Assembly (NCBI GenBank): GCA_000613465.1
Contig: BAJA01000002.1
Span: forward strand, 186,001 to 250,000
Reading direction: 5' to 3'
Length of the DNA: 64,000 nucleotides
Origin: Bacteroides nordii WAL 11050 = JCM 12987
Lineage (GTDB): Bacteria; Bacteroidota; Bacteroidia; Bacteroidales; Bacteroidaceae
A program made the translations under genes and the position numbers. The notes beneath the pieces were generated by a model. That model worked only from the letters and a program-made list of their open reading frames with translations, was not told the DNA's origin and did not search any database. This document shows positions 5,565-45,605 of the stretch, one piece after another (positions within the stretch are counted from its first letter, which is position 1; each line of letters begins with the position of its first letter).

Positions 5565-5619
5565 AAAATAAAAGCTCCCTACAGATTTAGAAAAATAATC
5601 TGTAGGGAGCTTTTATTTT
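5565..5619 (+). terminator. Strong intrinsic terminator
   Basis: Arms at 5565-5587 and 5597-5619 pair perfectly over 23 bases around AAAGCTCCCTACAGATT. The hairpin is flanked by A-rich and T-rich tracts (TTTTATTTT), so it can work in both directions. It ends the operon at 2891-5549. Confidence 0.85.
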
Positions 5620-6040
5620 GGTTCATTACTTCTCATTGCGTTAACACCGTTAACGAAGTTTTTAACATTCAAATTCTTACCTTACAAGATTGTACATTTT
5701 AGCACCACAAGAATGTACAACCTTATATGGCAAAAGTGTACATTTAACACTAACATAAGTGTACACTCTTATAGGACTAAAAATATAGGATCATAACTAT
5801 CTGACAAACAAAATATTAAATCAACAAACATATTCTATTCCGGATTTTCTTCCTCCAATGTCTATAATTGCTTTTTGAACAACTATCCATATATCGAAGG
5901 GATTAGAATGAACACCTTCTTTCACTATCTGCTTTAGATAAAACTACGGTATTACACAAAAAACACAAGTTATATAGAATAGCGTAGTCCTTTTATCTAT
6001 TTGAACCACCGCACTACTCTATATAACTTGTGCCAAAGTT
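5620..6040. other. Convergent intergenic region holding a 23-bp array and a long hairpin
   Basis: There is no gene here. It contains the TGTACA array (5686-5777) and a hairpin whose arms are at 5964-5987 and 6014-6032 (CACAAGTTATATAGA against TCTATATAACTTGTG). It lies between the calycin-like gene and the 3' end of the first PCMD/MBG gene. Confidence 0.6.
5686..5777. repeat. 23-bp-phased TGTACA array A (4 units)
   Basis: TGTACA occurs at 5691, 5714, 5737 and 5760, exactly 23 bp apart. Each copy is preceded by AAGAT, AAGAA, AAAAG or ATAAG. The same spacing and motif recur at 22.2, 25.9 and 44.8 kb. It sits between two convergent genes. Confidence 0.8.
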
Positions 6041-14951: not shown

Positions 14952-15090
14952 TTTAGCAGTCAGCAGTTAGTAGTCAGTAGCTGGAATCCTTTCGGGCATA
15001 TCAACACATACATGCTGCATAGATTCTATCTACTAACTACTAAATTCCAACTTCTTATTCTATCTACTAACTACTAAATTCTAACTTCTT
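14952..15090. repeat. Intergenic repeat (TAGTTAGTAG / CTACTAACTA words)
   Basis: GCAGTTAGTAGTCAGTAG at the left is complementary in style to two direct copies of TCTATCTACTAACTACTAAA (about 15025-15080) at the right. It belongs to the same class of arm-variable intergenic hairpins; the middle contains CATACATGCTGCATAG, loosely like the shared loop core. Confidence 0.5.
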
Positions 15091-15097
15091 ATTCATT

Positions 15098-22167: not shown

Positions 22168-22199
22168 CAAAGGTAGATAAATTTAAGGTATAGCCCAAA
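22168..22199 (-). promoter_or_regulatory. topB promoter
   Basis: On the minus strand TTTG (complement of 22196-22199), a 20-base spacer, then TACCTTTG (complement of 22168-22175), about 23 bases before the topB start codon. The TGTACA array B begins at the same base where the -33 box ends. Confidence 0.75.
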
Positions 22200-22244
22200 A
22201 GAGTGTACACTTTTGTCTGATGAGAGTGTACACCGAAGATATTA
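22199..22244. repeat. 23-bp-phased TGTACA array B (2 units)
   Basis: TGTACA at 22204 and 22227, 23 bp apart, in the contexts AAGAGTGTACACTTTTG and GAGAGTGTACACCG. It lies in the divergent region between topB and the GH84 gene. Confidence 0.75.
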
Positions 22245-25692: not shown

Positions 25693-25875
25693 AGCACTTT
25701 TATTGATCAACTTTTATCAAAGATAGTCTTTATGCGAATCAGTAGTTGAAATTCTATTTTAACCCAATCAGCATTGAGCTTAATAACCTCTGCTGTTACC
25801 ATCAGGCTCTTACACCGTATCAATAAAGTCCTGTCTTATAGAGTATCGTAGGAGGCCTCGGTGTGTAACATTGTT

Positions 25876-25967
25876 TTAGATGTACATGTAAAGCAGTACG
25901 ACATGCACATGTGGGACAGTACGACATGCACATGTGGGACAGCACGACATGTACATGTAAAACAAGG
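25876..25967. repeat. 23-bp-phased TGTACA/TGCACA array D (4 units)
   Basis: TGTACATGT at 25881 and 25950 and TGCACATGT at 25904 and 25927, all 23 bp apart. Units 2 and 3 differ at one base only, so this copy expanded recently. It lies between convergent genes. Confidence 0.8.
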
Positions 25968-26030
25968 CTGCTCACCAGGGAAAGGAACGTTCCTTCCTGA
26001 GAAAGCCAAGGTACAACACCGAGCGGTGAT

Positions 26031-26060
26031 GTGCTTCCCGCACGGGGAGGTACGCCAGGC
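26031..26060 (-). repeat. Dispersed CCTCCCCGTGCGGGAAGCAC repeat
   Basis: A 30-base element with an internal CCCGTGCGGG-type hairpin. Near-identical copies lie at 35258-35286 and 56842-56871, all intergenic. Confidence 0.7.
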
Positions 26061-26257
26061 AATGGTTTATAGAAACGCAGATAAGCGCAAATTCACGCAA
26101 AGCATATCATCGCTCAAATATAGTACAGCCATTTAATCTGCGAAAATCTGCGATCATTTGCGTTTCAATAAAACGCTGTCACATAGTATGAACTAAATTT
26201 GAAGTAGTGCTTAGAAAAGATACACACTGTTAATTTATCGTTTTCAGTCAGGTATTT

Positions 26258-44650: not shown

Positions 44651-44698
44651 AAAGAAACCGCCGGATGAATATTCCCCCATTCATCCGGCGGTTTCTTT
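44651..44698 (+). terminator. Intrinsic terminator after the DUF3868 gene
   Basis: AAAGAAACCGCCGGATGAAT (44651-44670) pairs fully with its complement at 44679-44698, ending in TTTCTTTTA. Confidence 0.88.
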
Positions 44699-45605
44699 TA
44701 GTTGTCAAATAAGTAAGTATCCTACTCTCCGAAAAGACAGACCAAAGAGCACAAGAGTAACCATCAACCCATACAACCAGCTTATTTTCAGCGATATAAA
44801 ACCCATTTATATTATATACGCAAGATTGTACACTTTTGCATGTGTTAACTGTACGTTTTTGTACTATAAAAGTGTACTAACATACTTTACAAAAGTGTAC
44901 AAACTTGCCGAACAGGAATCTGGCGTTAACACTTAGTGTTAATAATATTAATTCAATCCATCATATTTTGATACTTATTAAAATCACAACTATCTTTTCA
45001 GCACTCCTTCCACCTCCAAAGAACAAAGTCCGGACAAATTCTATTACTTAGTGCTAATACTCTTGTATTCAGCCAACAACAAAGTCTATTTCCTGATTTA
45101 AAAAAACCTATTTTAAGGACTCGTTAAATACGTACTTATTGCATAGAAAGGATGGATAGTTTAACTTCAAAAATACTATACCTTATATTCCTAAATACAA
45201 AAGCCTCAAATGGAGTGTTAAAAAGCTATTGACAAGGAGACAAGTTAACAGGTTTTGAATATATTTCACCACAGAGTAGCACAGAATTTTATTATCCGGA
45301 TAAAACGCAGATTAACGTGAATGATCGTAGATTTAAAATTCCCCCCACATACCATGTTAAATTCATCATCAGATTCTCATTGAATCCAAACCCAAAAAAC
45401 AGATATAATTCAGCAAAAAAGAATCTGTTTTAGATGAAAAACATGAGTGAGAAATGCGTGAAAACACCCCTGTATCATGAGAATTAAGCCGTATTTCATT
45501 CATTTTTGACTGAAACACACACCACAAAAGCCCTACTTTACATTTTGCAGAAAACATCGCACATTTTTGAAAAAAACACCAATGAGCGGACTCATGACTT
45601 CCCTC
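44699..45605. other. Long intergenic region before the fimbrial operon
   Basis: No convincing gene in about 900 bases. It contains the 23-bp array C (44822-44913), GTTAAC words near 44925 and a CACCACAGAG/AACGCAGATT half-element (45267-45345). Two AAAACACC-like words 22 bp apart (near 45555 and 45577) recall the 22-bp array at 42.3 kb. Confidence 0.55.
44822..44913. repeat. 23-bp-phased TGTACA array C (4 units)
   Basis: TGTACA at 44827, TGTACG at 44850, TGTACT at 44873 and TGTACA at 44896: three successive steps of exactly 23 bp. Contexts are AAGATTGTACACTTTTG, CTGTACGTTTTTG, AAAAGTGTACTAAC and AAAAGTGTACAAAC, closely like arrays A and B. Confidence 0.8.

Follow-up and report, generated by a model that had tools for sequence, protein, structure and literature searches.

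Palindrome arrays with a 22/23-bp step in Bacteroides nordii and their probable pairing with HU-HIG proteins

INTRODUCTION

Four TGTAC cores, each 23 bp from the next, stand upstream of a fimbrial operon in the 64,000-nucleotide stretch of Bacteroides nordii DNA analyzed here (the window). The locus raises two questions, namely, what would read such a run of sites (array C) and whether the run belongs to the operon that follows it. The original prediction favored a protein-binding array over slippage, and its candidates included operators of a LytTR or LuxR-type regulator and an iteron-like or nucleoid-organizing site.

RESULTS

Array C is a run of four dyads with counterparts in the window

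The TGTAC cores of array C lie at 44827, 44850, 44873, and 44896 of the + strand, which bears out the predicted positions and 23-bp step. TGTAC-N17..19-TGTAC pairs occur 12 times in the window versus 0.29 expected, and a count of 12 was reached in 0 of 100 shuffles. The predicted conservation of the TGTACA 6-mer held for its first five bases in all four cores, which read in order TGTACA, TGTACG, TGTACT, and TGTACA, and failed for the final A in cores 2 and 3. Each unit consists of 18 bp of imperfect palindrome (consensus CAAGAG-TGTACA-CTCTTG) and a variable 5-base spacer, which add up to the step of 23. The distance of about 700 bp to the fimbrial -7 element was also predicted correctly. The features of the window are as follows.

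Array C: 44821..44907, no strand assigned; four 18-bp imperfect dyads with 5-bp spacers, dialect 1, consensus CAAGAGTGTACACTCTTG.
Family II MITE-like element around array C: 44679..44978 (approximate), + strand; ends set by alignment.
Array A: 5685..5771, no strand assigned; four dyads, cores at 5691, 5714, 5737, and 5760.
Array B: 22198..22238, no strand assigned; two dyads only, cores at 22204 and 22227.
Array D: 25875..25961, no strand assigned; four dyads, dialect 2 (ACATGTACATGT).

Arrays A, B, and D are the three further sites for which the same core and step had been claimed. All three exist, and array A has four TGTACA cores (5691-5765); the shared core did not hold throughout, as array B has only two cores (22204-22232) and array D (25881-25955) is written in another dialect, two of its four cores being TGCACA. 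Array A sits between convergent genes, inside a reversed family II element (about 5606-5899), and array D lies within a family III element (about 25774-26103). At array C, the left end of the element (ATTCATCCGG.., TAGTTGTCAAAT..) is similar to the family II consensus end, and the right end is degenerate. Array B is flanked by two divergent ORFs, one of 727 aa (topoisomerase-like by eye) and one of 1109 aa; a search of its flanks for similarity to the element families found none, and it could be a true operator use of dialect 1. The window also holds a near-perfect intergenic 34-bp tandem repeat at 15023-15094.

Arrays are dispersed over the B. nordii genome in three element families

Genome-wide, 132 TGTACA-N17-TGTACA pairs were counted in B. 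nordii against 85 for the backwards-read control, a score that we attribute to ACATGTACATGT arrays, which contain the backwards pattern. Forward matches to TGTACA-N17-TGTAC numbered 137 in B. nordii, compared with 0-3 in 37 of 40 congeners and 5-8 in the remaining three. At least 49 arrays were gathered from about 0.83 Mb, a set that includes the window and leaves out contig C118 and most of C117 beyond it. Exactly four cores were present in 43 of the 49, with one mismatch allowed per core and one of 50 rows (L067 5721, taken for a chance match) dropped. All-against-all comparison and alignment placed 47 of the 49 in three families that have nothing but the array in common; assignment was by hand and is weak for several copies, and array B is one of the two arrays outside the families.

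Family I: about 113 bp, 22 copies.
Family II: about 280-300 bp, 19 copies, with imperfect inverted-repeat-like ends.
Family III: about 330 bp, 6 copies, palindrome ACATGTACATGT.

Family II cores are nearly invariant, whereas alignment identity between copies is roughly 63-81%; the consensus ends resemble GATTCATCCGACAAAT in inverse orientation, and many copies are degenerate. The predominance of exactly four cores, and their outlasting the flanks, fit a protein-binding array better than slippage, as had been proposed. The genes recurring next to B. nordii arrays form small clusters only, which by eye are common families (SusC/TonB-like proteins, sensor kinases, and sigma factors).

At the array C locus of the three nearest relatives (L105-L107; 72-74% identity in the upstream gene), no array was found with a detector that is insensitive, the same dyad detector at a stricter setting having recovered only 6 arrays in 45 B. 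nordii sources. The flanking matches are about 310 to 650 bp closer together in these relatives. Because the locus there shows no array by this detector and its flanks are closer, array C is most simply explained as a lineage-specific insertion and not as a conserved fimbrial operator. Absence from orthologous loci had been proposed as evidence against the array altogether; the absence seen here, at this identity and with this detector, fits such an insertion and does not indicate a chance origin.

Other repeats were also observed in this genome. A third dialect of 22-bp units with GTTTCTCGTAGAGAAAC occurs at L036 11809, L054 3971, and L056 6873. A duplicated segment of about 660 bp (L043 10426-11084 and L051 9258-9937, about 81% identical) holds GTTTCTC..GAGAAAC-type repeats, one copy ending at a dialect-1 array and the other at a single dialect-2-like palindrome. 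Contigs C69, C78, C81, C85, C87, C88, C100, and C109 start 4-320 bp from an array, and an HU-HIG gene of C116 likewise stands at the end of its contig; arrays seem to break the draft assembly.

The geometry is shared across Bacteroidales and the dialect is not

Within the genus, 33 of 158 genomes, B. nordii included, have triple TGTAC-N18 arrays, and other species use the 23-bp step with other palindromes (ACACCCGGGTGT, GTTGTACAAC, AGATGTACATCT, and ACGTACGT). When 84,980 species were scanned for three TGTACA cores, at least 98 stretches came up; among the matches listed (80 titles), 56 were from Bacteroidota, 8 from Treponema, and 16 from others, and many of the listed Bacteroidota matches were clear dyad arrays by palindrome read-out. 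TRF was applied to random 200-kb samples of four congeners, and arrays with 2.8 copies or more that lay outside long ORFs were considered: their periods peaked at 22 bp in three congeners and spread over 22-24 bp in the fourth (G046). The palindrome detector, run on the same samples, yielded a single 23-bp array and nothing at steps of 18-22 or 24-30. Given the 22-bp peak, we state the geometry as 22/23 bp and not 23 bp. On these sequence comparisons, the common trait appears to be a 22/23-bp dyad geometry in many dialects rather than one motif.

The region upstream of mnmA was surveyed in the 29 species that had sequence there, and 22/23-bp arrays with a copy number of about 2.7 or higher turned up in 10 (G069, G112, G154, G070, G018, G066, G155, G022, G056, and G014). 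These arrays are of several dialects, and their left neighbors differ at L113, L265, L269, and L272, which makes the position alone uninformative. At L265, L269, L271, and L272, 22-bp arrays of several dialects occupy one place before mnmA. Two further observations concern single records. In Candidatus Bacteroides intestinipullorum (L100, G058:C71:42573-42945), arrays of two dialects stand about 90 bp apart. A record labeled Eubacteriales (L158) carries the B. nordii dialect and a segment 82% identical to B. nordii intergenic DNA and is, for these reasons, probably mis-binned Bacteroides.

Arrays stand upstream of many HU-HIG genes

In a set of 98 loci chosen by TGTACA arrays alone, we found 10 HU-like ORFs; in nine of these, the array lies 42-229 bp 5' of the start. 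An array is also kept in place before an HU-HIG gene, divergent from mnmA, in G069, G112, G154, and G070. A virus record (phage or prophage) carries two dialects, AAAGTGTACACTTT with a 23-bp step (two arrays, five dyads each) and TAAAGTATATACTTTA with a 22-bp step (three arrays); one array per dialect stands directly before an HU-like gene of the record. The virus arrays and the mnmA-divergent array before HU-like genes led us to test HU-HIG genes for arrays. The virus scan gave 0 matches to the exact B. nordii dialect; further virus contigs with 23-bp-step TGTACA arrays were seen at L285, L289, L290, and L293.

PF18291 and TIGR01201 are known families, and HU-HIG is, going by the Pfam entry name, a described clade. 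Bacteroides genomes contain 8 to 45 PF18291 matches each (60 genomes, ordinary HU included). Upstream periods from 15 to 40 were compared at the top HU-HIG gene in each of 30 genomes. A period of 22 came out best in 30 of 30, and the score was 28 or more of 46 in 29 of 30; this test is dialect-free, and many of the 30 genes are orthologues. Downstream of the same genes, 22 was the top period in only 5 of 30, with scores of 22-24. Among controls, a 22/23-bp array was found upstream of 11 of 476 ordinary ORFs (200 codons or more), in 30 of 3000 random windows, and at 0 of 24 ordinary HU genes of the class, one of these 24 loci having only 194 bases upstream.

The association does not extend to every family member. 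In four further genomes, where 30 of 55 PF18291 matches were taken in, 14 of the 30 HU-HIG genes scored 28 or more at 22 or 23 bp (one of the 14 scoring higher at another period) and 16 did not. B. nordii itself has 15 PF18291 matches, counted as 12 HU-HIG and three ordinary HU genes; two of the 12 are cut by contig ends, leaving 10 testable. A 23-bp array lies directly upstream of three of these 10, written in the family III dialect (dialect 2) in two cases; by our array rule the other seven have none, one of them showing a 21-bp period. A class-wide search gave four loci matching from the profile start: a 22-bp array was present at one locus of the same genus and at an HU-HIG gene of another family of the order (G248), and no array was found at two HU-HIG genes from other orders.

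At 26 of 36 HU-HIG genes with an array, a TAnnTTTG -7 element ends close to where the leader array starts. Dispersed arrays border on such an element in 3 of 44 cases, against a background of 20 of 450 60-mers; they are not placed like operators. A leader array would lie over the transcription start and therefore where an autorepressor operator would be placed.

The PF18291 cut-off of 26.2 bits was exceeded by all seven predicted reader proteins tested; of the virus HU-like proteins, one scored above it (53.1 bits) and that of the second dialect below it (20.8 bits). A structural model of the L195 protein (mean pLDDT 71, 4 sequences) matched an HU chain with Z up to 9.2 over 83 residues (rmsd 2.7) and also matched IHF, TF1, and the Bacteroides vulgatus protein 4fmr, the HU/IHF/TF1 matches ranging from Z 9.2 to 5.8. 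This modest model of one family member supports an HU/IHF fold for HU-HIG.

Leader and dispersed arrays share a dialect in several genomes

In G053 (B. graminisolvens), G082 (B. sp. 519), and G076, the dispersed arrays are written in a common dialect, ACACCCGGGTGT or one close to it. The same dialect forms a 23-bp array upstream of one HU-HIG gene per genome (L385, L375, and L378, respectively) among the 7-8 examined in each. The three proteins are alike at their start and are 56-62% identical to the G076 protein. Leader and dispersed dialects also coincide for dialect 2 of B. nordii, in G069/G070, in a Parabacteroides MAG (L148), in Phocaeicola coprophilus (L190, L196), and in the Loclat MAG (L192, L195). 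Between two sister species, the HU-HIG upstream arrays differ in dialect and the HU-HIG protein is 70% identical; eight other matched ORFs are 81-99% identical, making HU-HIG the most diverged of the nine. This one case suggests that reader and dialect may change together.

For the dialect of array C, the predicted reader is the HU-HIG gene L318 (G000:C116:253497-253862). Its protein matches PF18291 with 70.8 bits, its start (YVVTKKVDKTKGE..) is of the same type as that of the CCCGGG readers, and it is 39%, 35%, and 31% identical to the G082, G053, and G076 proteins, respectively. The contig leaves only 104 bp upstream of L318, in which a weak 23-bp periodicity (simple-shuffle p 0.0015) and no clear dialect-1 dyad were found.

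DISCUSSION

We infer that array C is probably a tandem-dyad site for an HU-HIG paralogue (PF18291 / TIGR01201), carried inside a dispersed MITE-like element. The bound unit would be a 16-18 bp palindrome with a 5-6 bp spacer, and dimers of array-linked HU-HIG proteins would bind about four such palindromes set 22-23 bp apart; runs of palindromes two helical turns apart could be filled cooperatively, as with lambda repressor. With its leader array at about the transcription start, an HU-HIG protein would shut its own gene. Dispersed copies of one dialect would be bound by the HU-HIG protein of that dialect and might act as nucleoid or chromatin sites, as regulatory sites, or as accessory sites of the carrier element; among the candidates of the original prediction, the nucleoid-organizing site comes closest.

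An unlikely alternative is that the arrays are selfish REP/MITE-like repeats spread by a transposase in trans, whose palindromes serve only that enzyme and whose adjacency to HU-HIG genes is due to chance. Such repeats would be dispersed and missing from the relatives' array C locus, as observed, and the inverted-repeat-like ends of family II, the contigs that start at arrays, and the excess of convergent over divergent settings (17 versus 6 of 40 arrays by rough ORF calls, the other 17 having both genes in one direction) point the same way. However, the IS200/RAYT transposase (PF01797) gave 0 matches in the B. nordii genome (93% complete), and a REP/RAYT identity was rejected on this ground. 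Moreover, the arrays are tied to one gene family and lie 5' of the gene in all nine close cases, leader arrays of 22- and 23-bp dialects sit mostly at a fixed place past the promoter element, and they are conserved in place across species G069, G112, G154, and G070.

Quite improbable, in our estimate, is an RNA-level element, that is, a run of hairpins in the mRNA 5' leaders of HU-HIG genes and the 3' regions of other genes, bound as RNA by HU-HIG or by some other protein. The arrays at HU-HIG genes follow a -7-like element and are thus probably transcribed, and the dyads could form 9-bp stems with 5-nt loops. Arm symmetry in the B. nordii arrays gives a divided answer: matching across the spacer exceeds expectation at arm positions 2 and 4 (z 3.3 and 4.2), but positions 1 and 3 fall under expectation on both axes (0.25 and 0.28 across the spacer versus 0.44 and 0.50 for non-adjacent arms), and the commonest arm pairs would give a mismatch on either strand. 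On the core axis, matching is below expectation at two positions and never above it, and we read the below-expectation arms as avoidance of perfect inverted repeats. In other species, neither the core axis nor the spacer axis shows excess matching over non-adjacent arms. Searches for RNA families returned two tRNAs only in the window, tmRNA and BTnc049 in seven array loci, and no Rfam match at the arrays looked at.

Finally, an operator array of the ordinary kind, read by a LytTR, LuxR, or other regulator of the fimbrial operon, for which the fixed step, the conserved core, and the distance of array C to the fimbrial -7 element could speak, is highly improbable, since the same arrays adjoin varied genes genome-wide with only common families recurring among their neighbors, -7 elements are no feature of dispersed array edges, array C is one of many dispersed copies and was not found at the locus in three relatives, and its center is palindromic by consensus while LytTR sites are direct repeats.

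Returning to HU-HIG proteins as readers of the arrays, the arrays at HU-HIG gene starts point to an undescribed protein-and-site system. In the open-licence literature, we found no paper giving HU-HIG a specific site or joining HU-HIG with arrays, and a multi-copy HU-related family paired with private dispersed dyad arrays seems to be new. The link would give a concrete target site to much of PF18291, a family expanded in Bacteroides, would make the HU-HIG regulon predictable from sequence, and would account for a class of dispersed repeats, array C among them. It would also provide a natural series in which protein and site vary as pairs, suited to work on the evolution of DNA recognition. 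More speculatively, and with somewhat less than even confidence, we propose that Bacteroidales use a private DNA "address" code, in which many HU-HIG paralogues each read their own 22/23-bp dialect in leader and scattered arrays, often of four units, and phages do likewise; reader and dialect would co-evolve fast, giving each species or phage a separate chromatin or regulatory network.

Several known systems offer partial parallels. HU binds DNA with little sequence preference, and TF1 of phage SPO1 is a site-preferring phage member of the HU/IHF family. The HU-HIG model matches HU, IHF, and TF1 structures, and the virus record has its own HU-like copies; unlike HU, each array-linked HU-HIG gene comes with a palindrome array of its own. 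Lambda CI binds short runs of sites at its own promoter, each site taking a dimer, measuring about 17 bp, and lying 20-24 bp from the next; the HU-HIG leader arrays can be likened to such runs, but the CI fold is unrelated to HU-HIG, and dozens of dispersed chromosomal arrays are found on the HU-HIG side only. The nucleoid-occlusion sites of Noc and SlmA are palindromic, scattered over the chromosome, and read by one protein, as proposed for the dispersed arrays; they are, however, single conserved sites with readers unrelated to HU, while the arrays come in fours with changing dialect. REP/BIME sequences with RAYT are likewise dispersed intergenic palindromes of species-specific sequence, from which the arrays differ by their link to HU-HIG genes and by the lack of a PF01797 match in B. 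nordii.

A further parallel comes from another Bacteroidales genus, in the BrickBuilt MITE of Porphyromonas gingivalis, whose 23-nt tandem repeats are intergenic, dispersed, and set in MITE-like flanks as in B. nordii (PMC4596501). The parts of that report considered here describe no link of BrickBuilt to an HU-like gene (PMC4596501), in contrast to the HU-HIG arrays. The original prediction knew of no described Bacteroides element of this form and was nearly right, as BrickBuilt repeats have the consensus AGAYCATARTATCCTCTCRTRTG in 1 to 22.8 copies (PMC4596501), whereas the B. nordii arrays are centered on TGTACA and keep to four cores in 43 of 49 cases.
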